Assembly: GCF_004570385.1 (NCBI RefSeq)
Contig: NZ_SPQL01000004.1
Location: 1 to 64,000 of the forward strand
DNA from: Blastococcus sp. CT_GayMR19
Lineage (GTDB): Bacteria; Actinomycetota; Actinomycetes; Mycobacteriales; Geodermatophilaceae
DNA length: 64,000 nucleotides
Direction: 5' to 3'
Part shown: positions 10,263-38,775 of the stretch, piece after piece
How positions within the stretch are numbered: position 1 is the first letter of the stretch
Layout: each line of letters begins with the position of its first letter
Translations under genes and position numbers: made by a program
The notes under the pieces: model-generated
Databases searched by the model: none
The model's input: the letters and a program-made list of their open reading frames with translations, nothing else
What the model was told of the DNA's origin: nothing

Positions 10263-10320
10263 GCGCCGTCTCCTCTTCACTCGCGGAGACCTACGGCGCG
10301 CAGGAACTCCGTCCTTGCCC

Positions 10321-10338
10321 CCACGGCGGGCGCCGTGG
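10321..10338 (-). promoter_or_regulatory. Hairpin between riboswitch and metY
   Basis: A perfect 7-bp stem, CCACGGC with GCCGTGG around a GGGC loop, lies just 3' of the SAM-IV aptamer and about 58 bases before the metY ATG. It could be an expression-platform stem (terminator or anti-terminator); no U-run follows, so control at translation or Rho-type termination is also possible. Confidence 0.45.
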
Positions 10339-10339
10339 G

Positions 10340-10430
10340 AGCCGGCTCTTCCCCTGGAGCACCTCAGACGGAGTAGAGGTTGCCGGGCAGCCAGCCAGGT
10401 GCTTCGCGCTGCCTCTCAGGAGCCAGTCGG
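10340..10430 (-). ncRNA. SAM-IV riboswitch of the metYX operon
   Basis: On the minus strand the leader shows the SAM-I/SAM-IV core. GGCTCCTGAGAGGCAGC is followed by a GCACCTGGCTGG/CTGC arm, the invariant CGGCAACCTC at 10376-10385, then GGTGCTCCAGGGGAAGAGCC. A closing stem pairs GGCTC at the 5' side with GAGCC at 10343-10347. The order, the CGGCAACC block and the GGTGCTCC pseudoknot-like segment match the actinomycete SAM-IV class. It binds S-adenosylmethionine and represses the methionine genes. Assignment is by eye, not by covariance model. Confidence 0.85.
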
Positions 10431-25100: not shown

Positions 25101-25478
25101 GTGGCCGAGCTGAGCCGACCGGACGTCGAGCCGCCCACCGGGCCGGCACCGGACGACCTCGTCATCGAGGACATCACCGTCGGCGACGGGCCCGAGGCGA
25201 CGAACGGCAGCCTGGTCAGCGCCCACTACGTCGGCGTCACGCACGACGGTGGCGAGCAGTTCGACGCCTCCTGGGACCGCGGCGACCCGCTGGAGTTCCG
25301 CCTCGGCGTCGGCATGGTCATCCAGGGCTGGGACGAGGGCATCGCCGGGATGAAGGTCGGCGGTCGCCGCCGGCTGACCATCCCCGCGCACAAGGCCTAC
25401 GGCGAGCGCGGCGCGGGCGGCGTCATCAAGCCGGGCGCGACCCTGGTCTTCGTCGTCGACCTCGTCGGCGTGAGGTAG
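25101..25478 (+). CDS. FKBP-type peptidyl-prolyl isomerase
   Basis: Small PPIase of 125 residues that catalyses cis-trans isomerisation of X-Pro bonds. The FKBP core shows VSAHYVGV, GGEQFDASW, FRLGVGMVIQGWDEGI and the C-terminal strand GATLVFVVDLVGV. AGMKVGGRRRLTIPAHKAYGERG, abbreviated here as VGGRRRLTIPAHKAYG, carries the active-site hydrophobics. No signal peptide, so cytoplasmic. GTG 25101 has AGGAGGGAG upstream. The stop at 25478 is eight bases before a repeated structured element. Confidence 0.92.
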   Translation: MAELSRPDVEPPTGPAPDDLVIEDITVGDGPEATNGSLVSAHYVGVTHDGGEQFDASWDRGDPLEFRLGVGMVIQGWDEGIAGMKVGGRRRLTIPAHKAYGERGAGGVIKPGATLVFVVDLVGVR

Positions 25479-25485
25479 TTGCACT

Positions 25486-25622
25486 GTCGTGCCGAGTGGG
25501 GCCCGGAGGGCTCCGCGCAGGCGCGACGCAACGGCTCTGCCCAGCGGGGGACGGCACGTGGCCGCGGTGCGGTCCGGAGGACCGCAGTGTCATTGCGCGG
25601 GACCCTCCGGGCCCCGCTCGGC
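25486..25622 (+). repeat. Structured intergenic element, copy 1
   Basis: Bases 25486-25592 match 36635-36742 closely over about 107 bases. An inner hairpin, TGCGGTCC-GGA-GGACCGCA (25568-25586), is kept in the second copy with changed but still paired bases. In this copy only, a 20-bp outer stem forms between 25491-25510 (GCCGAGTGGGGCCCGGAGGG) and 25603-25622, with one G-U pair. It fills the gap before the FrnE-like gene. It could be a non-coding RNA, a cis leader or a MITE-like repeat. Confidence 0.7.
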
Positions 25623-25674
25623 TCGACCCGGCCCCTCACGGAATGCTTGAAGACGCAACGAAGTTGGGCCGGGC

Positions 25675-26367
25675 ATGCAGGTAGAGGTCTGGTCCGACGT
25701 CGTGTGTCCGTGGTGCTACATCGGGAAGCGCCGGCTGGAGGCAGCGCTCGAGCGGTTCCCGCACCGCGACGAGGTCGAGGTCGTCTGGCGGTCGTTCCAG
25801 CTCGACCCGAGCGTCCCCGAGGGGACGACGCACCCGACCCTCCCCGCGCTCGCCGCCAAGTACGGCCGCAGCGAGGAGGAGATGCGGGGCATGCAGCAGC
25901 ACGTGGAGCGGGTCGCCGCCGACGAGGGCCTGGAGTACCGCCTGGCCGACAGCCTCAGCGGCAACACGCTGCTCGCCCACGAGCTGCTGCACCTGGCCGA
26001 CGAGCACGGGAAGCGCAACGAGCTCAAGGAGCGGCTGCTGCACGCCTACTTCGAGGAGGGGCGCCCGGTCTTCGACGTCGACTCGCTGGTCCCCTTCGCC
26101 GTCGAGGTGGGGCTGGACGAGGCCGAGGTGCGCGAGGCGCTCGCCGACCGCCGCTACCTGGCGGCCGTCCGTGCGGACGGCGCCACCGCGCAGGCGCTGG
26201 GCGCCACCGGGGTCCCGTTCTTCGTGGTCGACCGGAAGTACGGCGCCGCCGGCGCGCAGCCGGCCGACCTGCTGCTGCAGATCCTCGAGCGGGCCTGGGC
26301 CGACGCCCACCCGCTCGTGACGGTTCCGGCCGCCGAAGGCTGCGAGGACGGCAGCTGCGCCGTCTGA
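25675..26367 (+). CDS. FrnE-like DsbA-family oxidoreductase
   Basis: Thioredoxin-fold protein of 230 residues. The redox centre CPWC is at residues 12-15 in SDVVCPWCYIGKRR; the helical insertion covers about residues 60-150, and the cis-Pro loop is ATGVPFFVVD. A second Cys pair near the C-terminus, in GCEDGSCAV, is notable and could relay disulfides. The family includes FrnE from Deinococcus and actinomycete polyketide clusters. No signal peptide, so likely cytoplasmic. It ends one base from the convergent nitronate monooxygenase gene, leaving no room for a terminator. Confidence 0.9.
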   Translation: MQVEVWSDVVCPWCYIGKRRLEAALERFPHRDEVEVVWRSFQLDPSVPEGTTHPTLPALAAKYGRSEEEMRGMQQHVERVAADEGLEYRLADSLSGNTLLAHELLHLADEHGKRNELKERLLHAYFEEGRPVFDVDSLVPFAVEVGLDEAEVREALADRRYLAAVRADGATAQALGATGVPFFVVDRKYGAAGAQPADLLLQILERAWADAHPLVTVPAAEGCEDGSCAV

Positions 26368-26368
26368 A

Positions 26369-27331
26369 TCAGCTGAGCAGACGCGGAACGGCCCGCAGCG
26401 CCTTCTCCGCCTCCGCGTCGAGTTCGCGGATCACGTCGGTGGCCGAGCGCTCGCTCGTCACCAGGCCGACGGACTCCCCGGCGTAGAGGGGGGCGTTGTC
26501 CGGATCTCCGGTGCGCCGTCCCTCGACCACGAGGCGGCGCGCGTCCGCGTCGTCCTGCAGCTCGTCCTCCCGGCCGTGCCATGTGCGGCTGAAGTCGTTG
26601 ACCAGGGCCCGCCCCGGCCAGCGCTCCGGCCAGGCGATGCCCTCCGCGACGTCGAAGGCGCGGGTCAGGACGGTCTCGTCCCCGGTGGCCGCGCGGATCC
26701 GCTCGCGGGCGGCGGGCGAGTTGAGGCCCTCCACGCAGGACAGCAGCGGCGTCCCGACCCATACGGCGGCGGCGCCCGCGACGAGGGCCGCGGCCATCCC
26801 GCGCCCCGTCGCGATGCCGCCCGCCGCCACCACCGGGCGATCGGTCAGCGTGAGCACCTCCTGCAGCAGCGGGAGGGTGGCCCGCCGGCCGGTGTGCCCG
26901 CCGGCCTCGGTGCCCTGGGCCACCAGCATGTCGACGCCGGCGTCGAGGGCGCGGTGGGCGTCGGCGGTGGTGTTGACCTGCGTGCAGACGGCGATCCCGG
27001 CGTCGTGCAGCGGTCCCACGTAGGGCGCGGGATCGCCGAAGGAGACGGAGACCAGGCTGGGCTGCGCCGCGACCGTCGCCTCGAACAGGTCGGGCCTGGT
27101 CTCCAGGACCCAGATCATCAGCCCGACGCCGAACGGCACCTGCGCCTCCGCCGGGATCGCGCACTGCTCGGTCACGAACTCCGCACGGTGGGACCCGCTG
27201 ATCCCGATCATCCCCAGCCCACCGGCCAGCGAGACGGCACGCGCGAGCTCGCCGCCGGACACCCCCGCCATCGGGGCCCCGATGACCGGGGTCGTCAGGT
27301 CGAACCAGCGGGTCAGCGGGGTCTTGATCAC
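26369..27331 (-). CDS. Nitronate monooxygenase / 2-nitropropane dioxygenase family
   Basis: FMN-dependent TIM-barrel protein of 320 residues that would oxidise alkyl nitronates. Visible family segments are PVIGAPMAGVSGGELARAVS at the N-terminus, QGTEAGGHTGRR (phosphate-binding and catalytic-His region, with His in GGHTG), VVAAGGIATGRGMAAALVAG and the FMN loop GAAAVWVGTPLL. Start is GTG 27331 with AGGATGA-like bases upstream. It is convergent with the FrnE-like gene. Enoyl-ACP reductase II-like function is an alternative but less likely given length and partners. Confidence 0.9.
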   Translation of the reverse strand: MIKTPLTRWFDLTTPVIGAPMAGVSGGELARAVSLAGGLGMIGISGSHRAEFVTEQCAIPAEAQVPFGVGLMIWVLETRPDLFEATVAAQPSLVSVSFGDPAPYVGPLHDAGIAVCTQVNTTADAHRALDAGVDMLVAQGTEAGGHTGRRATLPLLQEVLTLTDRPVVAAGGIATGRGMAAALVAGAAAVWVGTPLLSCVEGLNSPAARERIRAATGDETVLTRAFDVAEGIAWPERWPGRALVNDFSRTWHGREDELQDDADARRLVVEGRRTGDPDNAPLYAGESVGLVTSERSATDVIRELDAEAEKALRAVPRLLS

Positions 27332-27513
27332 GCGGTCATCCTGCCGCCGACCTCGCCGTGCGGCTACTGCGTCGCCGGACCGCCCTGTTCGGTGCCGGAG
27401 AGCCGCCGGACGACGTGGGCATTCCCGTGACGGTGGGTCGGAAAACGAGCGGACCGGTCCGTCCCGGGGCGGTCACCCGGGCACCGCACGGGCCCGGGCG
27501 ACCCCTCCACCGG

Positions 27514-27786
27514 TCAGGTGGGCGGTGCGGCCTGGGTGAACGGCCCGCCGGTGTCGACGTCGGGCTCGTGCTCCGGGCCACCCGAGTCGGGGATGCCGCC
27601 CATGACCGGCAGCCCGCCGGCGTCGTCGGCCTCGGTCCCACCCGCCGCGAGTTCCTCCTCGCCGGTGGCCGCGGGGTCGTCCTCGGCGGAGGCGAGGTCG
27701 GCGCCCTGGCCGTAGGCGCCGGGATCGGCCTGCGCGGTACGGGGGTCGCCCCGCGGATCGGGGACGTCGGGATCGGTGACGGTCAT
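27514..27786 (-). CDS. Small acidic disordered protein, unknown function
   Basis: Predicted 90-residue protein starting at ATG 27786, rich in Asp, Glu, Gly, Pro and Ala and lacking hydrophobic segments. Third-codon positions are strongly G/C throughout, as for real genes in this DNA, and the frame stays open to a TGA. No domain is recognised. Charge and composition suggest an intrinsically disordered cytoplasmic protein. The ribosome site is weak and the upstream 72 bases are shared with the divergent ArsR gene and its operator. Confidence 0.55.
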   Translation of the reverse strand: MTVTDPDVPDPRGDPRTAQADPGAYGQGADLASAEDDPAATGEEELAAGGTEADDAGGLPVMGGIPDSGGPEHEPDVDTGGPFTQAAPPT

Positions 27787-27831
27787 CCGAGGCGCATGCC
27801 CCGGCGTCCCGGGTCCGAATGCCTGGCCAAC

Positions 27832-27851
27832 GCGTAACCGACGTGTTACGC
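27832..27851. promoter_or_regulatory. ArsR-type operator
   Basis: GCGTAAC and GTTACGC form a perfect 7-bp inverted repeat with a six-base spacer, ending seven bases before the GTG of the ArsR gene. It probably binds the ArsR-family dimer and autoregulates the operon, and could also touch the divergent small gene. Confidence 0.65.
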
Positions 27852-27858
27852 ATACGCC

Positions 27859-28188
27859 GTGGAGGCGCTGACCGCACTGGCGGATCCCACCCGCCGGGAG
27901 ATCGTGGCGCTGCTCGCGCACGGCGAGCGGGCCGCCGGTGAGCTGGCCGAGGGCTTCCCGGTGAGCCGTCCGGCGATCAGCCGGCACCTGCGCGTGCTCC
28001 GGGCGGCCGGGCTGGTCCGGGCGCGGGTCGACGGGAAGCGGCGGTTCTACACGCTTGACCCGGCGCCGTTGCGGGAGCTCGACGACTGGCTGGAGCCCTA
28101 CCGCGACCTGTGGGCGCAGCGGCTCGACGCACTGGACACCGAGATCGCCCGCGGCCGGCGGGAACGGACGACAGGAGACTCCCGATGA
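27859..28188 (+). CDS. ArsR-family transcriptional repressor
   Basis: Winged-helix regulator of 109 residues. It opens directly with ALADPTRREIVALLAHGERA, the first helix and turn of the family; the recognition helix is in SRPAISRHLRVLRAAGLV and the wing in DGKRRFYTL. It lacks the metal-binding Cys motif of classic ArsR, fitting the subgroup paired with SRPBCC proteins. GTG 27859 begins seven bases after its likely operator. The stop overlaps the SRPBCC start by four bases, so both are one operon. Confidence 0.9.
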   Translation: MEALTALADPTRREIVALLAHGERAAGELAEGFPVSRPAISRHLRVLRAAGLVRARVDGKRRFYTLDPAPLRELDDWLEPYRDLWAQRLDALDTEIARGRRERTTGDSR

Positions 28189-28694
28189 CAGAAGACCTCG
28201 AGACCCGGCGCGGCGTGGTGACCCGGGAGGACGACGGCCGGCAGCGGCTGGAGTTCCGGCGCTCGTGGCCCGACCCGATCGAGGACGTCTGGTCGGCGCT
28301 GACCGAGCCCGACCGCCTGGCCCGCTGGATCGGCAGGTACGACGGCGAACGGCGGGCGGGTGGCACCGGCACCTTCGCGATGACGCACGAGGGGGGCGAG
28401 CCTGCCGGTGAGCCGACCACGATCGTCGAGTGCGATCCGCCGCGCCGGCTGGTGATCGAGTGGGTGCAGCAGGACACGGACGCCTGGCGGATCGATCTCG
28501 ACCTGTGGGTGGAGGGCGGCCGCACGGTGCTGCGCTTCGTGCAGTTCTTCCCGGCCGGCGCCGACGTCGCCGACTTCGCGGGCGGCTGGCACTGGTATCT
28601 GGACAAGCTCGGCGCCGAGCTGAGCGGCCGGCCGCAGCCGACCGACTGGGACTCGTTCTGGGCCGAGGTGGGCCCCGGCTACCGCCCCGCCTGA
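28185..28694 (+). CDS. SRPBCC (AHSA1-like) domain protein
   Basis: START-fold protein of 169 residues whose core shows the AHSA1-type pattern FRRSWPDPIEDVWSALTEPD, RLARWIGRYDG, and a C-terminal helix ADFAGGWHWYLDKLGAEL. Such proteins bind hydrophobic ligands or act with Hsp90; paired with ArsR regulators they are common but of unknown ligand. GGAGACTCCCG precedes the ATG, which overlaps the ArsR stop (ATGA). The last 16 bases overlap the 3' end of the convergent membrane gene. Confidence 0.88.
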   Translation: MTEDLETRRGVVTREDDGRQRLEFRRSWPDPIEDVWSALTEPDRLARWIGRYDGERRAGGTGTFAMTHEGGEPAGEPTTIVECDPPRRLVIEWVQQDTDAWRIDLDLWVEGGRTVLRFVQFFPAGADVADFAGGWHWYLDKLGAELSGRPQPTDWDSFWAEVGPGYRPA

Positions 28695-29098
28695 GCGCGG
28701 TGCCCGAGCACGGCCATCCCGGCGGCCAGGGCGATGCTCGCGGCGAGCACCGGCGTCTCGACGGGGTCCCATCCGCCCGGCCGCAGGTGCTGTCGGAAGA
28801 ACCGTTCGGAGAGGTAGCCGGGAACGTTGACGGTGCCGAGGAGGCCGAGCACCCGCCGGGCGAGATCGTCCGGCCCGGCGGCGAGGCGCCGCACCGCCCA
28901 CAGCTGGGTGATCAGCATCGTGACCGGGGCGCTGTACGCCGTGCCGTTCCACACCGCGTCGCGCCCGATGTGCTCGGGGGAGCCGCGCATGAACCCGACG
29001 TCGAAGTACCGCTTGCGACCGACGGCGACCGCCAGGCCGGCCAGCTGAGCGCCCAGCTGGGCCGTCGAGGTCGCGACGAGCAGTCCCCGGCTCGACAT
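28679..29098 (-). CDS. Small membrane protein, paralogue A (DUF4267-like)
   Basis: Membrane protein of about 139 residues starting at ATG 29098; a GTG at 29152 is possible but the paralogue next door supports the shorter form. It shares ordered blocks with the 29157 gene: QLGAQLAGLAVAVGR, FMRGSPEHIGRD, GTAYSAPVTML, and HLRPGGWDPVETPV before a last hydrophobic helix. About three membrane helices are predicted. Function unknown. The tandem arrangement indicates a local duplication. Confidence 0.7.
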   Translation of the reverse strand: MSSRGLLVATSTAQLGAQLAGLAVAVGRKRYFDVGFMRGSPEHIGRDAVWNGTAYSAPVTMLITQLWAVRRLAAGPDDLARRVLGLLGTVNVPGYLSERFFRQHLRPGGWDPVETPVLAASIALAAGMAVLGHRAQAGR

Positions 29099-29156
29099 GC
29101 CGAGCACGCCAGGCCGCGGGAAGGCCCGTTCGGGGCCCTCGTGCGCGCTCACTCGC

Positions 29157-29567
29157 TCAGCCGGCGCGGCGACTCAGGAGCGCCATCGCGATCACCCCGC
29201 CCCACCCGACGACGACGATCGGCGTCTCGATCGGGTCGAATCCGCCCGGGCGGATCCGCGCCCGGCTCGACCGCTCGCACAGATAGCCCGACATCAGCCC
29301 GGTGCCCAGCCACCGGAGCACCCAGCGGGCGCGCTCGTCGGGCGCGCGGAGCAGCCGGGCGGTGGCCCAGAGCTGGGGCGCGAGCAGGTAGGGCGGGGCG
29401 CTGTAGGCCGTGCCGAACCAGAGCCAGTCACGGGTGATGTGCTCGGGGCTGCCCGTCATGAACGGCACGTCGAAGTGGCGCCCCCGGCGCACGGCGACGA
29501 CGTGCCCGGCCAGCTGGGCGGCGAGCTGAGCCGCGGAGACGGCAGCGAGCGCCGATCGATTCGCCAT
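29157..29567 (-). CDS. Small membrane protein, paralogue B (DUF4267-like)
   Basis: 136-residue relative of the adjacent downstream gene: QLAAQLAGHVVAVRRG, FMTGSPEHITRD, GTAYSAPPYLL and RIRPGGFDPIETPI align in order, followed by a hydrophobic helix. ATG 29567 has TACCGT at 29576-29581 (minus strand) eight bases upstream, so it is probably leaderless. Conserved GSPEH and GTAYSAP motifs may form a ligand site. Both copies are intact, which suggests each is under selection; no neighbour reveals a role. Confidence 0.72.
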   Translation of the reverse strand: MANRSALAAVSAAQLAAQLAGHVVAVRRGRHFDVPFMTGSPEHITRDWLWFGTAYSAPPYLLAPQLWATARLLRAPDERARWVLRWLGTGLMSGYLCERSSRARIRPGGFDPIETPIVVVGWGGVIAMALLSRRAG

Positions 29568-29669
29568 GGCGCCGCACGGTAGAGCTCCCGGGCCGCTACC
29601 GGAGCCCTTCCCGCGCCCCAGGAGAGCTGCCGAACTCCGGGAGTGCGGACGACGACCGGGGAGCGCGGG

Positions 29670-30830
29670 TCAGGAGGGCAGCCCGACCTGCACGGGGTCG
29701 GGGCCGGTCCACGGGCCGAGCGTGCCGAGCAGCTGCGAGCGCGAGGCCAGCCGTGGCCCCGCCTGCACCGGGTAGACGTCGTATCCGTCGGTCAGCTCGC
29801 GGTGGGCGTGGAGGGCGAAGTTCGGGTCGTCCTGCGCCTCCCGGGCGATGGCCACCAGGTCGGCCGAGCCGGAGCTCACGATCGCCTCGGCCTGGCGGGC
29901 GTCGACGATCAGGCCGACGGCGACCGTGGCGATCTCCGCCTCGGCGCGCACCTTCGCCGCGAAGGGCACCTGGTAGCCGTAGCCGATCGGGTGTTCCCAG
30001 CCACCGCCCAGCCCACCGCCGGAGGTGTCGACGGCGTCGACGCCACGCGCCTTGAGCTCCCGTGCGAAGGCCACGGTGTCCTCGACCGTCAGGCCGTCCC
30101 GCGAGCCGTCGACGGAGGAGACGCGGACGAACAGCGGCTTGTCGGCCGGCCAGGCGGCGCGGACGGCGTCGACGATCTCGAGCGGGAAGCGCATCCGGTT
30201 CTCGAGCGAACCGCCGTACCCGTCGTCCCGGCGGTTCGACAGCGGGGAGAGGAACTGGTGCAGCAGGTAGCCGTGCGCCGCGTGGATCTCGACGACGTCG
30301 AAACCGGCGGCCAGGGACCGCGCCGTGGCAGCGACGAACGCGTCCCGGATCCCGGCCAGCTCGTCCGCCGTAACCGCGGACGGCGTCGAGTAGCCCGGCC
30401 CGGCCGGGACGGCGCTGGCCGACACCGTCGGCCACGGCTCCTCGCCCGGCCGGGACTTCCCGGGCCGCACCGAACCGCTGCCCTCCCAGGGGCGCAGGCT
30501 GCTGGCCTTGGCGCCGGCATGGGCCAGCTGGATCCCGGCGGCGGACCCGTGCGCGTGCAGGAAGTCGGCCACCCGCGCGAGGCCGGGGACGTGCTCGTCG
30601 GACCACAGCCCGACGTCGCCGTGACTGATCCGCCCCTCGGGGGTCACGGCGGTCGCCTCCACCAGGACGAGGCCGAACCCGCCCAGCGCGAACCGTCCCA
30701 GGTGCACCAGGTGGTAGTCGCCGACGAGGCCGTCGCTCACCGAGTACTGGCACATGGGGGCCACCACCAGGCGGTTGGGCAGCGTCAGGCCGCGGAGGGT
30801 CAGGGGCGCGAAGAGGGCGGGGGTGCTCAC
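29670..30830 (-). CDS. Old Yellow Enzyme family NADH:flavin oxidoreductase
   Basis: FMN-binding ene-reductase of about 386 residues, close to the YqjM type. Motifs seen are VVAPMCQYSVSDG near the start with the Cys typical of the thermophilic-like class, VEATAVTPEGRI, IQLAHAGAKAS, FDVVEIHAAHGYLLHQFLSP and the FMN phosphate loop in ADLVAIAREAQ. It reduces activated double bonds with NAD(P)H; natural substrate unknown. GTG 30830 gives the expected start, but the ribosome site is poor. It is divergent from pckG with a 206-base regulatory gap. Confidence 0.9.
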   Translation of the reverse strand: MSTPALFAPLTLRGLTLPNRLVVAPMCQYSVSDGLVGDYHLVHLGRFALGGFGLVLVEATAVTPEGRISHGDVGLWSDEHVPGLARVADFLHAHGSAAGIQLAHAGAKASSLRPWEGSGSVRPGKSRPGEEPWPTVSASAVPAGPGYSTPSAVTADELAGIRDAFVAATARSLAAGFDVVEIHAAHGYLLHQFLSPLSNRRDDGYGGSLENRMRFPLEIVDAVRAAWPADKPLFVRVSSVDGSRDGLTVEDTVAFARELKARGVDAVDTSGGGLGGGWEHPIGYGYQVPFAAKVRAEAEIATVAVGLIVDARQAEAIVSSGSADLVAIAREAQDDPNFALHAHRELTDGYDVYPVQAGPRLASRSQLLGTLGPWTGPDPVQVGLPS

Positions 30831-30887
30831 GGGAGGGTGCCAACGCCGGTCCCCGTCTCCCTCTTCCGGGGTGAAAGCAGACGTCCT

Positions 30888-30900
30888 AGACGTAACGTCT
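30888..30900. promoter_or_regulatory. Inverted repeat upstream of the pckG promoter
   Basis: AGACGT-A-ACGTCT is a perfect inverted repeat, preceded by a further direct AGACGT at 30879-30884. It lies seven bases upstream of the likely pckG -35 hexamer, a position typical of operators. Regulator unknown. Confidence 0.5.
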
Positions 30901-30907
30901 CTCACGA

Positions 30908-30935
30908 TTACAGGACTGTGAACACTCGCTACGCT
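30908..30935 (+). promoter_or_regulatory. Probable pckG promoter
   Basis: TTACAG (30908-30913) and TACGCT (30930-30935) are spaced by 16 bases and give a start near 30942, leaving a leader of about 95 bases before the GTG at 31037. Confidence 0.5.
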
Positions 30936-31036
30936 TACCCGACCCGGACGTCGTGCGCACCGCGGCGACGTCCTGAACGAACAGCACTTCTGCCGGCGCA
31001 CGACCCAGCCCCGGCTACCCACAGGATGGAGACGCC

Positions 31037-32851
31037 GTGACTTCCGTGGCCACCCCCGGTCTCGACAACGCCCCCACTACCCACGCCCGCCTGCTGGCCT
31101 GGGTGCGTGAGATGGCCGAGCTGACGACACCCGACGAGGTGGTCTGGGTCGACGGCAGCGACGCGGAGTGGAACCGGCTCACCGAGAAGCTGGTCGCGGC
31201 GGGCACCTTCACCCGCCTGGAGAAGAAGGCCAACTCCTTCTGGTGCGCCTCCGACCCCCGCGACGTGGCGCGCGTCGAGGACCGCACCTACATCTGCTCG
31301 GTCGACGAGGCCGACGCCGGTCCGACCAACAACTGGATGGACCCGACCGAGATGAAGTCGGTCATGACCGAGCTGTACCGGGGGTGCATGCGCGGCCGGA
31401 CGATGTACGTCATCCCGTTCTGCATGGGCCCGGTCGAGGCCGAGAACCCCATGTTCGGCGTGGAGCTCACCGACTCCGAGTACGTCGTCGTCTCGATGCG
31501 GGTCATGGCCCGGATCGGCAGCCACATCCTCGAGGCGATGGGCGAGGACCGGCCGTTCGTGCCGGCCATGCACTCGGTCGGCGCCCCGCTCGACGAGGGC
31601 CAGCAGGACGTGCCCTGGCCCTGCAACGACACGAAGTACATCGTGCAGTTCCCCGAGGAGCGGACCATCTGGTCCTACGGCTCGGGCTACGGCGGCAACG
31701 CCCTGCTGGGCAAGAAGTGCTACTCCCTGCGGATCGCCTCGGTCATGGCCCGCGACGAGGGCTGGCTGGCCGAGCACATGCTCATCCTCAAGCTGATCAG
31801 CCCGCAGCAGAAGGTGTACTACGTCGCCGCCGCCTTCCCGTCGGCCTGCGGCAAGACGAACCTGGCCATGCTCGAGCCGACCATCCCGGGCTGGAAGGTC
31901 GAGACCCTCGGCGACGACATCGCCTGGATGCGCTTCGGCGAGGACGGCCGCCTCTACGCCCTCAACCCCGAGTACGGCCTGTTCGGCGTCGCCCCGGGCA
32001 CCGGGTGGGACACCAACCCGAACGCCATGCGCGCGATCGACAAGGGCAACTCGGTCTTCACCAACGTCGGGCTCACCGACGACGGCGACGTCTGGTGGGA
32101 GGGCATGACCGAGGAGCCCCCCGCCCACCTGATCGACTGGAAGGGCCGGGACTGGACGCCGGAGAGCGACGAGCCCTCCAGCCACGCGAACAGCCGGTTC
32201 TGCACGCCGATCACCCAGTGCCCCATCCTCGCGCCGGAGTACGACGACCCGAAGGGCGTGCCGATCTCGGCGATCCTCTTCGGCGGCCGCCGCAAGACCA
32301 CGATCCCGCTGGTCAGCGAGGCCCGGGACTGGAACCACGGCGTGTTCATGGGCGCGACGCTCTCCTCGGAGACCACCGCCGCGGCCACCGGTGCGGTCGG
32401 CGTCGTCCGCCGCGACCCCTTCGCCATGCTGCCGTTCATCGGCTACAACGCCGGCGACTACGTCTCCCACTGGGTGAACACCGGCAAGCAGCACGACTCC
32501 ACCAAGCTGCCCCGGATCTTCTACGTGAACTGGTTCCGCCGGGACGAGGACGGCGGCTTCCTGTGGCCGGGCTTCGGTGAGAACAGCCGCGTGCTCAAGT
32601 GGGTCGTCGAGCGCCTCGAGGGCACCGCGGCCGCCGTCGAGACCCCGGTCGGCCACGTGCCGACCGTGGACTCGCTCGACGTGTCCGGCCTGGACATGAC
32701 GCGGGAGCAGGTCGAGCAGGCCCTCGCGGTCAAGCCCGAGGAGTGGCGCGAGGAGATCCCGCAGATCACCGAATGGTTCGAGAAGTTCGGCGACAAGCTC
32801 CCCAGCACGATGTGGGACGAGTTGGAGATCCTGAAGAGCCGGCTCCACTGA
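31037..32851 (+). CDS. pckG: Phosphoenolpyruvate carboxykinase (GTP)
   Basis: 604-residue GTP-type PEPCK that converts oxaloacetate to PEP in gluconeogenesis. The P-loop/kinase-1 motif is [14 protein letters not shown] with active-site Cys271; metal and substrate sites are in [12 protein letters not shown] and [29 protein letters not shown] and the omega-loop-like [13 protein letters not shown] are also present. GTG 31037 has GGATGGAG upstream. A strong hairpin follows the stop. An upstream inverted repeat suggests transcriptional control by carbon source. Confidence 0.97.
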
Positions 32852-32866
32852 CCCGGCGCTGAACGC

Positions 32867-32901
32867 CCGAGGCCCAGAGCCGATCCGGTTCTGGGCCTCG
32901 G
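32867..32901 (+). terminator. Terminator hairpin of pckG
   Basis: A perfect 12-bp stem pairs CCGAGGCCCAGA with TCTGGGCCTCGG across an 11-base loop, 16 bases after the pckG stop. No T-run follows, as is common in this GC-rich group. Confidence 0.75.
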
Positions 32902-32998
32902 CCGTCCCGGGGCCGCCCGGCCCTTCCCAGGCCGACGGGGTCCCGGGTCGGTAGCGTGACGGGCGCCCCACTTCGTCGGACGTCAGGCTTCCCCGCCC

Positions 32999-34213
32999 GT
33001 GGCCAATCCCTACCTCCAGGTGCTGCGGACCCCGCACGCCCTGCCGATGGTGCTGGCCGCGTTCATCGGGCGGCTGCCGTTGTCGATGGTCGGTCTCGGG
33101 TGCGTGCTCCTGGTCGCGGCCGAGACGGGGTCCTACGGGCTCGGCGGCGCCGTCGCCGCCGTCGGTGCGGTCACCACGGCCCTGGCCGGGCCGGTGCTCG
33201 GCCGCCTCGCCGACACCCACGGGCAGCGCCGGGTGCTGCTGCCCGTGCTCGCCGTGTTCGTGCCGTCCGGGGTGACGTTCCTCTTCGCGGTCCGCCAGGA
33301 CTGGCACCTGTCGATCGTCTTCCTCTCGGCGGGGCTGGCGGGCGCCTGCATCCCGCCGGTCTCCTCGATGATCCGGGTGCGCTGGACCCATCTGCTGCGC
33401 GGCAGCCACCGCCTGCCCACTGCGCTGGCGATGGAGTCGGTGGTCGACGAGTTCGTGTTCATCGTCGGGCCCGTCCTGGTCACCTTCCTGTCCACGACCG
33501 GCCACGCGACCAGCGGCGTCGTCACCGCCTTCGCCCTGGCCGCGGTGGGCAGCCTGCTCTTCGCCGCCCAGGCCCGCACCGAGCCGCCCCCGGCTCCGCA
33601 CGAGCACCGCAACGGGCCGTCCGCGATGCGGGTCCGCGGGCTGCGGGTGCTGTTCGTGGTGGGCGCCGCCGTGGGCACCATCCTCGGCGCGCTGGAGATC
33701 GCCCTGGTCGCCTTCGCCGACGAGGTGGGGGTCAAGCCGATGGCCGGCGTGCTGATCGCCGGGCTGGCGCTCGGCTCGATGGCCAGCGGCATCGGCTGGG
33801 GCGCCGTCCACTGGCGGCTCCCGCTGCGGCACCGGCTGACCGCGGTCCTGGTGCTCATGACCCTGCTGAGCCTCCCGCTGCTGGTGGTGCGCGACGTCTG
33901 GCTGATGGTCCCGTTCGTCGTGATCGCGGGCGTGGCCGTGTCGCCGGCCCTCATCAGCTCGTTCACCCTCGCGGAGGTGCTCGTGCCCCGGGCGTCGGTC
34001 ACGGAGGCGTTCACCTGGATCGGCACCGCCCTGGGGCTGGGCGTGGCGGTCGGCTCCTCCGTCGCGGGCAAGCTGGTCGACGTGGCCGGCGCGAACACGT
34101 CCTTCGTCGTGGCCACGGTGGCCGCGGCGGTGGCGGCGGTCGTCGTCGCCGTGTGCAACCGGATGCTGCGCGTGCCGGCCGAGCACGCGGTCATCCCCGC
34201 CCTCGCCCGCTGA
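32999..34213 (+). CDS. MFS transporter
   Basis: Membrane protein of 404 residues with about twelve helices. Motif A-like GRLADTHGQRRVLLP lies between helices 2 and 3; the N-half also has SSMIRVRWTHLL, a pattern seen in actinobacterial YfkF/efflux-type MFS proteins. A second loop RVRGLRVLFVVG starts the C-half. Substrate unknown. TAGCGT at 32952-32957 may be its -10 box, giving a short leader; the GTG at 32999 lacks a strong ribosome site. It stands alone between pckG and the TctC gene. Confidence 0.85.
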   Translation: MANPYLQVLRTPHALPMVLAAFIGRLPLSMVGLGCVLLVAAETGSYGLGGAVAAVGAVTTALAGPVLGRLADTHGQRRVLLPVLAVFVPSGVTFLFAVRQDWHLSIVFLSAGLAGACIPPVSSMIRVRWTHLLRGSHRLPTALAMESVVDEFVFIVGPVLVTFLSTTGHATSGVVTAFALAAVGSLLFAAQARTEPPPAPHEHRNGPSAMRVRGLRVLFVVGAAVGTILGALEIALVAFADEVGVKPMAGVLIAGLALGSMASGIGWGAVHWRLPLRHRLTAVLVLMTLLSLPLLVVRDVWLMVPFVVIAGVAVSPALISSFTLAEVLVPRASVTEAFTWIGTALGLGVAVGSSVAGKLVDVAGANTSFVVATVAAAVAAVVVAVCNRMLRVPAEHAVIPALAR

Positions 34214-34250
34214 GCCGGCCCCCGGTGTCCGCACGCTCCGCGCAGCTCGC

Positions 34251-34295
34251 AATTCCCGACAGAGGGAATCTGATGGTCTAATGGTCGGGCCATTA
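34251..34295. promoter_or_regulatory. Two inverted repeats upstream of the TctC gene
   Basis: ATTCCC (34252-34257) pairs with GGGAAT (34264-34269), and TAATGG (34279-34284) with CCATTA (34290-34295). The stretch is unusually AT-rich and ends 66 bases before the GTG, so it likely holds a promoter and operators, possibly for a GntR- or response-type regulator not encoded nearby. Confidence 0.55.
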
Positions 34296-34361
34296 CGCCG
34301 CAGGGGGGCGTCGTGGTGTGAACCCCGCGGCGGCGACGCCGGGGGAGGAGAGGAGCCCGCC

Positions 34362-35429
34362 GTGGCAGTCAACCGGAGCCGCACCCGATCTCGTACCTAC
34401 GGGCGGGCCACGCTGACCGTCCTGCTCGGGGGCGCGCTGACCGCATGCGGCGGTGCCGGCGGCGGTGCCGGAGGCGGCGGCGGTGGTGGCGGTGGCGGCG
34501 AGGAGGCCCCCTTCGCCGGGGCCCGCCTCGACTTCGTCGTCCCCTACGAGCCCGGTGGCGGCTACGACGTGTACGCCCGCAGCCTGGCGCCCTACTTCGA
34601 GGAGTGCCTCGACGCGACGGTCACCGTCCAGAACGAGGCCGGCGCCGGTGGCCTCGTGGCGACCAACAAGACCGCGATCTCCCCTGCGGACGAGAACCGC
34701 TTCCAGATCGTGAACACCGTCGGCCTGGTCTCCGCCCAGATCGCCGGGGAGGAAGGGGCCAACTTCGACCTCAACGACCTGAACTGGATCGGCCGGGTCT
34801 CCGCTCCGCCGAACGTCCTGGTCGTCGGCAACGACAGCGGCTTCGAGTCCTTCGAGGACGTCGTCGCCGCTGAGGAGGCCGTGCGCTTCGTCGCGCAGGG
34901 CCCCGGGGCCAACGACTACCTCGCCCCGAACATCGTGGGGGCCGCGTACGAGTTCCCGTTCGAGGTCGTCACCGGCTTCGCGGGCGCGCCCGAGGCGCGC
35001 GGCGCCGTGATCGCCGGGGACGCCGACGCGCACATCCTCCCGGTCGACAGCCAGCTGAGCGCCATCGAGGCGGGGGAGGTGCAGCCGCTGGTCACCATCG
35101 ACGAGGAGGCCGACCCACTGCTGCCCGACGTGCCGACCATCTACGACGCCGCAGCCCCCGAGGGCGACGCGAAGGAGATCATCGACAACCTGGTGGCCCT
35201 GGGGCAGACCGGCCGCGCACTGATCGCCTCCCCCGAGATGCCCGAGGCGAGCGTCGAGGCGCTCCGCGAGGCCTTCACCTGCGTGATGGAGGACGAGCAA
35301 CTCCTCAGCGAGCTCGAGGAGCAGCAGCGGCCCGTCGACCCGCTGGGTGGCGAGGAGACGGCGGCCCTGGTCGCCGAGGTCCTCGAATCGCCCGAGGAGT
35401 TCCAGACGCTCGTCACCGAGAGCTTCTGA
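34362..35429 (+). CDS. Tripartite tricarboxylate transporter (TctC/Bug) substrate-binding lipoprotein
   Basis: Extracellular solute-binding lipoprotein of 355 residues. A basic N-terminus and hydrophobic segment end in the lipobox LTAC, followed by a remarkable linker of almost pure glycine (about residues 27-45). The Bug fold begins with LDFVVPYEPGGGYDVYAR, the carboxylate-binding loop of the family, and continues with VQNEAGAGGLVATN. It should capture a carboxylate for a TctAB permease, but no TctA or TctB gene is present in the window. GTG 34362 follows GGAGGAGAGGAG. Operator-like repeats lie upstream. Confidence 0.88.
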   Translation: MAVNRSRTRSRTYGRATLTVLLGGALTACGGAGGGAGGGGGGGGGGEEAPFAGARLDFVVPYEPGGGYDVYARSLAPYFEECLDATVTVQNEAGAGGLVATNKTAISPADENRFQIVNTVGLVSAQIAGEEGANFDLNDLNWIGRVSAPPNVLVVGNDSGFESFEDVVAAEEAVRFVAQGPGANDYLAPNIVGAAYEFPFEVVTGFAGAPEARGAVIAGDADAHILPVDSQLSAIEAGEVQPLVTIDEEADPLLPDVPTIYDAAAPEGDAKEIIDNLVALGQTGRALIASPEMPEASVEALREAFTCVMEDEQLLSELEEQQRPVDPLGGEETAALVAEVLESPEEFQTLVTESF

Positions 35430-35469
35430 CCGGGCTCCTGACCGACAGGTCCTGAGCGGCGGCCGCGGC

Positions 35470-35475
35470 TAAGGT
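35470..35475 (+). promoter_or_regulatory. Leaderless -10 box of the rhodanese gene
   Basis: TAAGGT ends seven bases before ATG 35483, which favours that start over an in-frame GTG at 35474 lying inside the box. Confidence 0.5.
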
Positions 35476-35482
35476 GGCCGGC

Positions 35483-35944
35483 ATGGCCGGGGCCGCTCCG
35501 CACTGGCCGGCCGAGGCGGGCGCTCCCGACCGGCCGGCCGGTTCCTGCACGGTCGACGAGCTGCTCGCCCGGGTGCGCGGCCGGATCGAGCGGGTCGAGC
35601 CGGCGGTGGCCTGGAGCCGCCTTGCCGCCGGGGCGCTGCTGGTCGACACCCGGCCGTCCGAGCAACGGGACCGGGACGGCGAGGTGCCGGGCGCCGTGGT
35701 GATCGACCGCAACGTCCTGGAGTGGCGGCTCGACCCGGCCGGCCCCGACCGGCTGCCGGAGGTGACCGGCTACGACCTCGAGGTCCTCGTCCTCTGCAAC
35801 GAGGGCTACAGCTCGAGCCTCGTAGCGGACACGCTGCGGACCCTCGGGCTGACCCGTGCCGTCGACGTCATCGGCGGTTTCGTCGCCTGGGCGGCCGCGG
35901 GGTTGCCCACGACCGGCGGCCGCGCCTCGGAGGCGGCGGCCTGA
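35483..35944 (+). CDS. Rhodanese-like sulfurtransferase domain protein
   Basis: Single rhodanese domain protein of 153 residues. The N-terminal cluster ALLVDTRPSEQRDRDGEVPGAVVI is the CH2A-like block, given here as LLVDTRPSEQRDRDGEVPG; the active-site Cys lies in VLCNEGYSSSLVA, and the last block is DVIGGFVAWAAAGLP. The loop CNEGYSS differs from the usual C-x4-R-[ST] pattern by lacking Arg, so sulfur transfer may be altered. The VLRF1 gene follows after 16 bases and is likely cotranscribed. Confidence 0.88.
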   Translation: MAGAAPHWPAEAGAPDRPAGSCTVDELLARVRGRIERVEPAVAWSRLAAGALLVDTRPSEQRDRDGEVPGAVVIDRNVLEWRLDPAGPDRLPEVTGYDLEVLVLCNEGYSSSLVADTLRTLGLTRAVDVIGGFVAWAAAGLPTTGGRASEAAA

Positions 35945-35960
35945 GCCGGACCGGGAGCCG

Positions 35961-36626
35961 GTGACCCGCGCCCGTCCCGCCGCGGGCGGTGGCCGCCGGC
36001 TGGGCGTGGCGCCCGAGCGCCTCGGCCGCTGGCTGGACGGCGTCGCGGAGCGGCACGGTGCGTTCACCGAGGTGTCGACCGCGGACGGGGCGGTGCACCT
36101 CACCTGCGCGGACACCACGGCGGTCACGCTCCGGGCGCCGTTCGACTGGGAACCCGAGCCGGCGCTGCTGTCCGGATTCACCGCTGCCGCCCGCATCCCG
36201 CACCGGGCCGCGGTGCTGCTCGTCCGGCGGGGGCGCTGGGCGGTCGGGATCTTCGACGGCTCGGACCTCGTCGTCTCCAAGGTGGACGCCCGGCTCGTCC
36301 AGGGACGCACGGCGGCCGGTGGCACGTCGCAGCAGCGCTACGCCCGCCGCCGCGGCAACCAGACCGACGCGGTCGTCGCGCACGCCGTCGAGACGGCGGT
36401 CCGGGTGCTTCTCCCGCACACGAGCGGCGTGGCCGCGCTGTTCACCGGCGGTGACCGCGGCCTGATCGACGACGTCCTCGCCGATCCCCGGCTGCGGCCG
36501 CTGGCGGCACTCCGCCGCGAGCCGGCCCTCGACGTGGGGGAGCCGACCAAGGCGGTGCTGCTCGAGACCCCGAAGCAGTTCCGCGCCATCGACGTCCACA
36601 TCCTGGAGCCTGAGGATCGGACCTGA
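35961..36626 (+). CDS. Actinobacterial Vms1-like release factor (acVLRF1)
   Basis: 221-residue homologue of the eukaryotic Vms1/ANKZF1 and eRF1 catalytic domain. The diagnostic loop GGTSQQRYARRRGNQ has the conserved glutamine that acts on peptidyl-tRNA on stalled ribosomes. Upstream are VLLVRRGRWAVGIFDG and SKVDARLVQGR; downstream the TGGDRGLIDDVLAD helix. Actinobacterial VLRF1 is known as a peptidyl-tRNA hydrolase-like rescue factor. GTG 35961 has GGGAG upstream. It sits between rhodanese and HelD genes, the latter preceded by a structured repeat. Confidence 0.85.
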   Translation: MTRARPAAGGGRRLGVAPERLGRWLDGVAERHGAFTEVSTADGAVHLTCADTTAVTLRAPFDWEPEPALLSGFTAAARIPHRAAVLLVRRGRWAVGIFDGSDLVVSKVDARLVQGRTAAGGTSQQRYARRRGNQTDAVVAHAVETAVRVLLPHTSGVAALFTGGDRGLIDDVLADPRLRPLAALRREPALDVGEPTKAVLLETPKQFRAIDVHILEPEDRT

Positions 36627-36634
36627 CTGGGAAG

Positions 36635-36742
36635 GTCGTGCCGAGTGGGGTCCGGAGGGCTCCGCGCAGGCGCGACGAAACGGCTCAACGCGCCCGGGGG
36701 ACGACGCCTGGCGGCGGTGTCGTCCGGAGGACGACAGTGTCA
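36635..36742 (+). repeat. Structured intergenic element, copy 2
   Basis: About 108 bases matching 25486-25592. The hairpin TGTCGTCC-GGA-GGACGACA (36718-36736) preserves pairing although two base pairs differ from copy 1. The outer 3' arm seen in copy 1 is missing. The element starts eight bases after the VLRF1 stop and ends two bases before the HelD GTG, so it forms the whole leader of that gene. Confidence 0.7.
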
Positions 36743-36744
36743 CG

Positions 36745-38775
36745 GTGACCCCCGCCCCCGATCCCGTCCTCGCCGCCGAGCGCGCCCACCTGGCGCGGGC
36801 GGCCCACTGCCTGACCGAGATGCGGTCCGCCGCCGCGGCGATCACCGATGCCGGCGTGGACGCCTGGGCCGCCGAGCGGCTCGGCGCCGCCCGCGCAGAA
36901 CGGCTCCGCGCCCTGGCCGCCGACCCCGGTGTCCCGCCGTTCTTCGGCCGCACCGACACCGACTCCGAGGCCTTCCACATCGGCCGCCGGCACGTCCGCG
37001 ACGCCGCCGGCGACCCGGTGGTCATCGACTGGCGCGCCCCCATGAGCCGGCCGTTCTACCAGGCCAGCGCCGCCGATCCCCAGGGCCTGGTGCGCCGCCG
37101 CCGCTACGGCTTCGCCGACGGCGAGCTGACCGGCTACGAGGACGAGCGGCTCGCCGCCGACGACGGGCCGGGGACGTTCCTCCGGGAGGAGATCGAGCGC
37201 CCCCGGAGCGGCCCGATGCGCGACATCGTCGCCACGATCCAGCCCGACCAGGACGACATCGTGCGGGCCCCGCTGAGCGAGTCGATCTGCGTGCAGGGGG
37301 CGCCGGGCACCGGCAAGACGGCGGTCGGGCTGCACCGCGCGGCCTACCTGCTCTACACGCACGGCGGCCAGCTCGCCCAGACCGGCGTGCTGGTGCTGGG
37401 ACCCAACCGCGCGTTCCTCCGCTACATCGAGCAGGTGCTGCCCACCCTCGGCGAGGTCGACGTCGACCAGACGACGGTCGCCGCGCTCACCGCGCGGGTG
37501 CCGGTCCGTGGGGTGGACCGGCCCGACGTCGCCGTCCTCAAGGGCGACGCCCGCCTGGCCGAGGTGCTGCGCCGGGCGCTGTGGGGCGAGATCGCCAAGC
37601 CGGCCGAGTCGATCCAGGTTCCGCTCTCCGGCCGGCGGTACCGCATCCCGGTCGAGCGGCTCAAGCGGTACGTCGACGACGTCCGCCGCCGCGGGCGCGG
37701 GGACGACGACCAGCAGCTGCTGCACTACGCCGCCGGCCGGGAGCGGGTGGCCACGCTCCTCGCGGAGGACGCCCGCCGGCAGAAGGAGGAGGCCGGGGGC
37801 AGCCCCACCGACGCCGAGACCGCCCGGGCAGCGCGCAGCGCCGAGGTGCGCGCGTTCTGCGACGACGTGTGGCCGGCCCGTGACGCGGCCGGGGTGGTGC
37901 ACGACCTGTGGACCGATCCGGCGCGGCTGGCCCGGGCGGCGCGCGGCATCCTCGACGAGAAGGAGCAGGCGCTGCTGCACCGGCCCGCCCGGTCGATCCG
38001 CGCCGCGGCGTGGACGGACGCCGATGCCGTGCTCGTGGACGAGGTCGCCGGCCTGCTGGAGCGCACGCCGGGCTACGGGCACGTGGTGGTGGACGAGGCG
38101 CAGGACCTCTCGCCGATGCAGTGCCGCGCGGTGGCCCGGCGGCTGGCGGCCGGCTCGCTCACCGTGCTGGGCGACCTCGCGCAGGCGACGAGCCCGTGGT
38201 CGCCGTCGGACTGGCAGGAGACGCTGGCGGGTCTCGGCCGGCCGGCCACCGTCGTCCGTCCGCTGACCCGCGGCTACCGGGTGCCCGGCGAGGTGCTGGA
38301 CTTCGCCAACCGCCTGCTGCCGCTGATCGCGCCGGACCTGCCGGCCGCCACGGCGATCCGCTCGGAGCCCGGCTCGCTCACCGTCCGGCCGGTGTCGGCG
38401 CTCGCGGGCCCGCTGCCCGAGGTCGTCGCCGGGCTAGTCGGCTCGCCGGGCTCGATCGGCGTGGTCTGCGCGGACGGCGCGGTGGCCGAGGTGGTCGGGC
38501 TGCTGGCCGGGGCCGGGCTGCCCGCGGCCGCACTCACCGACGACGACGATGCGGCGGCCCGGGTGGCGGTCGTGCCGGCGACCCTGGCCAAGGGGCTCGA
38601 GTTCGACGCCGTCGTGGTGGTGGACCCGGCCGCGATCGTCGCCGCGGAACCCCGCGGGCTGCACCGCCTCTACGTCGTCCTCACGCGGGCGGTGAGCACG
38701 CTCGTGGTGCTGCACCGCGGCGACCTCCCCGCGCCCCTCGCCGTCCCGGTGGCGGAGGCCCTGGGACAGGTGTGA
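36745..38775 (+). CDS. helD: HelD-like UvrD-family ATPase (RNA polymerase recycling)
   Basis: 676-residue superfamily 1 helicase-like ATPase. Walker A is GAPGTGKTAVGLHRA, Walker B VVVDEAQDLSPMQCRA, and later motifs are TRGYRVPGEVLDFANR and the C-terminal RLYVVLTRAVSTLVV. An N-terminal coiled-coil arm (residues 1-60) and WRAPMSRPFYQA are typical of HelD rather than true UvrD. HelD proteins displace or recycle stalled RNA polymerase and some confer rifamycin tolerance. No rifamycin-associated element is recognised upstream; instead the leader is the structured repeat. ATPase family is certain; gene name is by architecture. Confidence 0.88.
   Translation: MTPAPDPVLAAERAHLARAAHCLTEMRSAAAAITDAGVDAWAAERLGAARAERLRALAADPGVPPFFGRTDTDSEAFHIGRRHVRDAAGDPVVIDWRAPMSRPFYQASAADPQGLVRRRRYGFADGELTGYEDERLAADDGPGTFLREEIERPRSGPMRDIVATIQPDQDDIVRAPLSESICVQGAPGTGKTAVGLHRAAYLLYTHGGQLAQTGVLVLGPNRAFLRYIEQVLPTLGEVDVDQTTVAALTARVPVRGVDRPDVAVLKGDARLAEVLRRALWGEIAKPAESIQVPLSGRRYRIPVERLKRYVDDVRRRGRGDDDQQLLHYAAGRERVATLLAEDARRQKEEAGGSPTDAETARAARSAEVRAFCDDVWPARDAAGVVHDLWTDPARLARAARGILDEKEQALLHRPARSIRAAAWTDADAVLVDEVAGLLERTPGYGHVVVDEAQDLSPMQCRAVARRLAAGSLTVLGDLAQATSPWSPSDWQETLAGLGRPATVVRPLTRGYRVPGEVLDFANRLLPLIAPDLPAATAIRSEPGSLTVRPVSALAGPLPEVVAGLVGSPGSIGVVCADGAVAEVVGLLAGAGLPAAALTDDDDAAARVAVVPATLAKGLEFDAVVVVDPAAIVAAEPRGLHRLYVVLTRAVSTLVVLHRGDLPAPLAVPVAEALGQV

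Follow-up and report, generated by a model that had tools for sequence, protein, structure and literature searches.

Small repeats in bacterial genomes are commonly dismissed as genomic debris, and classical T-run terminators are rare in high-GC actinobacteria. The mycobacterial interspersed repetitive units (MIRUs) are found at gene boundaries, where they have a stop-codon-related target, form tandem arrays, and carry small open frames that link co-directional genes. The subject of this work is a structured repeat of ~110 bp in Blastococcus sp. CT_GayMR19 (Geodermatophilaceae, assembly GCF_004570385.1), two copies of which lie in the first 64,000 nucleotides of contig NZ_SPQL01000004.1, the stretch analyzed here (the window). 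The element folds on one strand into hairpins mostly of one loop type, has a dominant offset to stop codons, is biased toward gene 3′ ends, and occupies junctions that are shared across species. It is tentatively explained, with a likelihood just short of even, as an old interspersed non-autonomous structured repeat that resembles repetitive extragenic palindromic (REP) sequences, settled next to stop codons, and was retained as a hairpin at gene ends. Judged by their descriptions, MIRUs and the element share the interspersed location at gene boundaries, the relation to stop codons, and the tandem arrays. On the same footing, the element is unlike MIRUs in that its genes mostly converge and its stems covary.

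REP sequences and bacterial interspersed mosaic elements (BIMEs) that are associated with REP-associated tyrosine transposases (RAYTs) are described in PMC2817692 and PMC12306157 as short extragenic palindromes of high copy number that lie close to the 3′ ends of genes and are thought to be spread in trans, and the element is like them in these respects. It is unlike them in size (~110 bp with several hairpins, compared to 20–40 bp), in the absence of a GTAG tag beside the hairpins in the aligned copies, and in the absence of a Y1/RAYT gene (PF01797) from its own genome. In Escherichia coli, 446 of 4,072 predicted REPs lie within 15 nt of a stop codon according to PMC12306157, whereas the right end of the element sits at an exact stop-codon offset. 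CGTC-tagged REPs resemble the element in lacking a dedicated transposase, and TGTC variants of their tag occur. PMC3733652 lists them in five phyla, none of which is Actinobacteria, with loops of 4–5 bases and stems of 8–9 bp; the terminal hairpin of the element, on the other hand, belongs to a larger unit, and its loop is mostly a three-base GNA. Bidirectional intrinsic terminators, as characterized in PMC5381666, are likewise located between convergent genes, and the stems of their hairpins evolve by compensatory changes; the element differs from them in being a dispersed homologous family and in that the scans of its window copies gave no T run. Literature searches, whose reach mostly excluded subscription journals, returned no paper describing this repeat.

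Fold and Folding Strand

The covariance model R1 was built from 38 copies of the own genome. It places copy 1 at 25485–25593 (+ strand, 118.5 bits) and copy 2 at 36634–36743 (+ strand, 114.4 bits), each over model positions 1–110, and thereby recovers the recurring segment that the initial annotation had described from the sequence. The two copies are 85% identical (blastn). An outer stem P1 (GTCGTGCC/GGCGCGAC) encloses an inner hairpin P2 and is followed by a terminal hairpin P4; P1 and P2 make up one long hairpin, and a small hairpin P3 has weaker support. In copy 1, the 5′ side of P1 (25486–25493, + strand) pairs with 25520–25527 in the strand fold, P2 with its GGA loop spans 25496–25516 (+ strand), and P4 (TGCGGTCC-GGA-GGACCGCA) spans 25568–25586 (+ strand), both hairpins being assigned by fold and covariation. 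P4 of copy 2 (TGTCGTCC-GGA-GGACGACA) was assigned by fold and sequence to 36718–36736 (+ strand). The double base-pair change between the window copies, TGCGGTCC/GGACCGCA versus TGTCGTCC/GGACGACA, which the initial annotation had pointed out, is exact. The written strand folds better than its complement in both copies, with −67.3 kcal/mol (z −2.34) against −52.1 kcal/mol (z −0.67) in copy 1 and −61.4 kcal/mol (z −1.85) against −46.4 kcal/mol (z −0.44) in copy 2.

Covariation was assessed in 61 distinct relatives' copies outside the set from which the model was built, their kinship being uncorrected. Stem cells are paired in 97.0% of cases compared to 87.4% after shuffling, and 124 cells carry a double change compared to 38.5 in the shuffled sets. 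None of 500 shuffles reaches the relatives' copies in any of five covariation measures. Double-sided changes occur at 14 of the 24 pairs and at 6 of the 8 pairs of P1, and pairing falls to 35–54% when the partner is shifted by 1–3 columns. As this alignment was fitted to the model, the test was repeated on 105 copies aligned without reference to structure. The pairs with the highest mutual information again fall in P4, P2, and P1, together with neighboring-column cross-talk in those stems, and no covariation in this alignment indicated a pseudoknot or a long-range partner for the middle part. Two linked forms, GCGRTCC and GTCGTCC, contribute to the signal in P4, and this part may go back to a small number of events. 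The pairs of the 4-bp stem P3 form in 94 to 103 of the 105 copies and are mostly invariant.

The strand that folds can be read from the mismatches. Among 2117 stem cells from 97 copies, G.T occurs 156 times and A.C 25 times; without the pairs whose consensus is a wobble, the counts are 37 and 17 of 1634. Since G.T wobbles far exceed A.C mismatches, it is the strand as written that folds. Among 147 copies examined, a GNA loop closes 127 of the 145 P2 hairpins found and 120 of the 131 P4 hairpins found, and the closing pair is C-G in 143/145 and 131/131, respectively. GGA is the commonest loop (110/145 in P2, 118/131 in P4). In the three-base loops of both hairpins, the middle base varies (GAA 14, GCA 5), and variants of the outer G or A number four in all. 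These data support selection on the folded strand, as RNA or as single-stranded DNA. The earlier proposal that the paired changes reflect selection on an RNA or hairpin structure is supported and extended to a particular strand by the double-sided pairs, the excess of G.T, and a hairpin that several species keep despite a changed stem at one junction (see below).

Copy Number and Distribution

The repeat had been taken for a two-copy element. The own genome (4.57 Mb in 42 contigs), however, gives 57 blastn matches and at least 95 matches to R1 (E ≤ 0.01), tandem and partial units included. Since 150 of 12,821 candidates were scored, the latter figure is a minimum. These matches group in 70 clusters, tandem arrays among them. 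A search with the P4 hairpin pattern (≤2 mismatches) returned 71 matches, mostly known copies or tandem hairpin repeats, and the reversed control returned none. A replication-strand bias would be a sign of single-strand transposition; by eye, the strands of the copies look mixed in three complete or near-complete genomes, the origins of which are unmapped.

Model matches are found in 46 of 57 genomes of the family. In a sample of 200 genomes from the order, 28 have matches, and 27 of these belong to the Geodermatophilaceae; the single model match outside the family lies in a genome that is 86% complete. Blastn gave one marginal match each in 2 of 24 genomes from other families (E 4e-4 and 8e-5). 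The element is a REP-like repeat in the broad sense of tens of extragenic hairpin copies enriched at gene 3′ ends.

Position Relative to Genes and Stop Codons

The surroundings of the copies were compared using a simple codon-usage gene caller. The own set comprises the best copy of ≥75 bits per cluster and covers 51 of the 70 clusters, the other 19 holding weaker copies only. The relatives' set of 47 copies consists of those with ≥85 bits (53 of 62), minus four at FrnE-ortholog loci and minus two further copies in one locus. Of the own copies, 25 lie between convergent genes, 13 follow an opposite-strand gene in a co-directional (− −) pair, seven lie in a (+ +) pair, four lie between divergent genes, and two fall within a gene call. 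The corresponding numbers in the relatives are 30, 12, 3, 2, and 0. The background was taken from gene gaps of ≥10 bp at loci that were not selected for the element, i.e., 370 gaps in 62 loci around one orthologous gene, which are not independent; 45 of them are convergent and 106 divergent. Against this non-independent background, the convergent excess has a Fisher p of 6e-9 (own) and 5e-14 (relatives), and the divergent deficit 0.001 and 8e-5, respectively. When the 51 gaps of the window itself are used (7 convergent, 11 divergent), p amounts to 2e-4 and 3e-7 for the convergent excess and to 0.09 and 0.016 for the divergent deficit. Overall, the copies of the family show a preference for the 3′ ends of genes.

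The right end consists of P4 followed by RTG. The next triplet is TCA or TTA in 34 of the 51 independent own copies, and the sequence RTG-TCA, which reads TGA on the other strand, is present in 31 of them. Where an opposite-strand gene adjoins this end, the triplet coincides with the stop codon of that gene in 11 of 39 copies of the own genome and in 19 of 42 copies from relatives, and the next commonest stop offsets account for two and three cases, respectively. A uniform null for the offset would be arbitrary; the argument rests on the presence of one dominant offset. Counted by genome, the stop lies at offset 0 in 7 of 22 loci of the congener G013 and in 6 of 11 loci of G073, a member of another genus, in partial overlap with the 42 relatives' copies. 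In some copies off this offset, the terminal hairpin is duplicated and its last unit adjoins the stop.

Shared Junctions

Neighboring genes were compared at 26 loci of G013, chosen from 34 matches (four more lie in the same stretches and four outside the set), and at 14 loci of G073, chosen from 22 matches (three more in the same stretches, five outside the set). Both neighbors are common with an element locus of the own genome at 11 of 26 loci in G013 and 8 of 14 in G073. One neighbor is common at six and two loci, and none at nine and four. By chance, fewer than one shared junction would be expected, given 70 clusters and an estimated ~4,400 genes. The orientation is the same at 17 of the 19 loci that share both neighbors.

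Two junctions were followed through the best 30 of 54 genomes each; the ranking favors carriers, so the proportions given for them are not unbiased frequencies. At the convergent junction C3:128707, the element is present in 13 of the 30 best-ranked loci, the own one included, always in one orientation. Its right end is at the stop or a few bases off in 11 of the 13, and extra bases or hairpins lie between in G014 and G009. With the written strand, 11 of the 13 orthologs have z < −2. The long hairpin in the predicted folds is clearly different in sequence in five of them (G000, G009, G026, G078, G028); in another five (G036, G079, G083, G019, G014), it either stays near the form of the family or has shrunk to P2. 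Most of the element-free genomes have a different hairpin at this position: 11 of the 17 loci without the element were folded, 9 of these have z < −2, and one of the other two (G011) resembles a decayed remnant. At the co-directional junction C2:32747, strong matches occur in 11 of the 30 best-ranked loci (own included), nine in the same orientation and two inverted, in addition to weak ones.

Proposed Origin and Retention of the Element

In the proposed course of events, the ~110-bp repeat would have spread through the Geodermatophilaceae long ago, in trans, by some mobility enzyme. Its right end (P4, RTG) would land directly against the stop codon of an opposite-strand gene, mostly between convergent genes, and many copies may have been retained there as a host gene-end element. 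Such an element could end or insulate transcription between converging genes or protect their 3′ ends. If true, a family of mobile-looking, stop-anchored repeats with a conserved fold, present at the same junctions in several genera, would offer a natural experiment on how mobile repeats turn into gene-end signals. The analysis also yields a usable covariance model and a list of junctions for testing.

Several observations weigh against this explanation. A search of the own genome for Y1 transposases (PF01797) found no match, with controls positive in 5 of 14 and other transposase families unsearched. The initial annotation had named a very high copy number with target-site duplications as the sign of a plain transposable repeat; the high copy number is seen, and no duplication was seen by eye in the flanks or in the comparison of filled and empty sites, for which a very close empty site is lacking. 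Scans of the two window copies found neither a terminator-like site nor a T run after the stem. The stop lies off offset 0 in 28 of the 39 copies of the own genome and in 23 of the 42 from relatives, and in 25 of 35 co-directional copies (13/20 own, 12/15 relatives') read-through from the genes yields the worse-folding strand. Only convergent junctions test the orientation, and at the seven that are shared it is the same in five and inverted in two, which weakens the retention of the element as a gene-end hairpin and strengthens a selfish origin. In one more convergent gene pair, the element has opposite orientations between species (L012 versus L045 and L052). Not every ortholog at C3:128707 keeps the hairpin: in G066, z is −0.20 and P2 is absent from the predicted fold, which again weakens the explanation; the own copy has a z of −1.64, and the left half is replaced by a different hairpin in G073 and G070. 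Lastly, orthologous copies are hardly more alike (mean similarity 0.783, 20 pairs) than paralogous ones (0.766). The cause would be saturation of the free positions, conversion between copies, or repeated hits on favored stops, so that the small difference also fits repeated re-insertion at such stops.

A purely selfish miniature element with a TGA-like right-end target is a possible, though less probable, account of the same data. Its structure would serve single-stranded DNA mobilization only, and the shared junctions would be hot spots that were hit repeatedly. High copy number and tandem arrays suit such an element, as do the C(GNA)G loops on one strand, a loop type that a title in the reference list of PMC7432603 calls extraordinarily stable in DNA. 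The TCA or TTA triplet follows the right end in more own copies than have a gene stop there, orthologous copies are hardly closer than paralogs, some sites are empty or inverted, and five same versus two inverted convergent junctions are too few to exclude chance. However, all 13 carriers at C3:128707 share one orientation, although this may go back to one old insertion, and in 5 of the 13 orthologs there the stem took on a different sequence in place without loss of the hairpin. Persistence at the same stop across several genera would also be long for a useless insertion, and no Y1 transposase was found in the own genome.

The gene-end explanation has a stronger form that is rather doubtful. 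There, close to a hundred dispersed gene-end elements per genome, strand-specific, positionally conserved, and fixed at an exact distance from stop codons between convergent genes, would be read by a dedicated factor through the C(GNA)G loops and the conserved GGGGACGGC...TGGCCGCGGTG module, would define transcript ends family-wide, and would have spread by transposition.

It is improbable that the GGA hairpin loops serve as a target or sponge that titrates the RNA-binding protein CsrA. The own genome does encode CsrA (86.4 bits), and GGA is the commonest loop in P2 and P4. Yet the loop tolerates changes in its middle base more readily than in the outer G and A, a pattern that suggests a GNA loop and not a GGA motif. 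CsrA sites usually have an A before GGA, which is absent here. The folding strand is, moreover, antisense to both neighbors in 25 of 35 co-directional copies, and one CsrA would leave the stop-codon offset unexplained. The csrA gene lies at L342 (G000:C26:454947-455105) and encodes an actinobacterial CsrA; open frames adjoin it or lie nearby, which we take to be FliW-like and FlgL-like.

A selenocysteine-type hairpin after UGA was considered as well. It was dropped, as TAA and TAG are also found among the stops and the element occurs at many unrelated genes.

The HelD and FKBP–FrnE Sites

The window copies illustrate how a single genome can make such a repeat pass for a gene-specific leader. 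Copy 1 lies between the stop codon (25476–25478) of an FKBP-type prolyl isomerase gene (25101–25478, + strand; PF00254, gene call) and a DsbA/FrnE-like gene (25675–26367, + strand; PF01323). Copy 2 makes up 110 of the 118 nt that separate the stop codon of an acVLRF1 release-factor-like gene (35961–36626, + strand; PF18859) from the start of a HelD-like helicase gene (36745–38775, + strand; PF00580, PF13245). For the latter gene, Pfam gives UvrD-helicase and AAA_19, and the name HelD is taken over from the initial annotation. That annotation had seen copy 2 as the whole HelD leader and copy 1 as an element before the FrnE-like gene, and both positions are correct.

A discrete structured small RNA or cis-regulator leading these two genes is very unlikely all the same, and this reading is largely refuted. 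Both copies stand directly before the genes and the covariation is real. The placement of copy 2, however, is lineage-specific. Stretches of the HelD site were fetched for 14 of 15 relatives from the genus, that of G013 covering the upstream gene's side only, and none of the 14 has a model match at the junction (best 10.7 bits, E 0.25). Among the 11 relatives with a short junction, TAACGT is found near the start codon in seven, a one-base variant in three, and neither in one; two relatives have ~0.8 kb between the genes. The functional setting of copy 1 is not supported by its orthologs. At the FKBP–FrnE site, the model matches 6 of 60 ortholog loci (E ≤ 0.01), two of these only weakly (36 bits), and all six matches are located at the FKBP stop in the orientation opposite to copy 1. 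Seven loci are empty (43–45 nt), and some have remnants. The leader idea fails for both genes because relatives lack the element or carry it inverted, and divergent gaps, moreover, are rarely occupied (4/51 own, 2/47 relatives'). The window copies appear to be later or re-arranged, lineage-specific placements and not conserved leaders.

That the element supplies a new stop codon by inserting into coding ends and truncating genes is equally unlikely: the RTG-TCA right end of 31 independent own copies would fit, but in FKBP, the one gene checked, the C terminus is unchanged between element loci and nearly all element-free loci while the stop is TAA, TAG, or TGA, so that this stop is native, and the expected overrepresentation of genes that run out of frame into the element is not seen (negative offsets 6/39).

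The TAACGT-like sequence near the HelD start in relatives (L228–L241) sometimes overlaps the acVLRF1 stop, and the window genome (36600–36745) has the element instead. We take this sequence to be a leaderless −10, as its position suggests.

Copy 1 had also been credited with a 20-bp outer stem that copy 2 lacks. This stem is in fact part of a 34-nt inverted repeat with 88% complementarity between 25486–25519 and 25594–25627 (− strand; blastn). The second arm looks like the remnant of the left end of an inverted copy, judging by its sequence, and lies outside the element proper. Trailing inverted left-end remnants of this kind give a pseudo terminal inverted repeat at C26:343878 (L007), at C8:8622 (L010), and in window copy 1.

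The absence of a known RNA class was confirmed at Rfam gathering thresholds, at which neither copy has a match; around copy 1, microRNA matches lie below threshold only. The single match in the whole window is an unrelated SAM-IV riboswitch at 10306–10423 (− strand, 80.4 bits, E 1e-12).

Other Hairpin Families

Three further hairpin families were seen by eye at the same kinds of junction. A second family, (T)GATCATCGGCG.GTGGC...CGCCGATGATCA, turns up at the ends of genes at a number of unrelated junctions in the family, namely L292, L294, L296, L309, L123, and the HelD junction of G010, with a related form in G004. At some junctions its hairpins start on the stop codon itself. A third repeat, which consists of an GATCAGGTGACCTGATC-like sequence and then an GCGTCCTCCCTCAC hairpin, is found at gene ends at L122, L172, and L177 (FKBP junction) and at L286 and L287; it is also the sequence that substitutes for the left half of the element in G073 and G070. 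The fourth family comprises long hairpins of the GGTGTTCCTCG...CTGCAGCAC type, which occupy the same convergent junction in element-free genomes (L291, L299, L301, L303, L304, L311).

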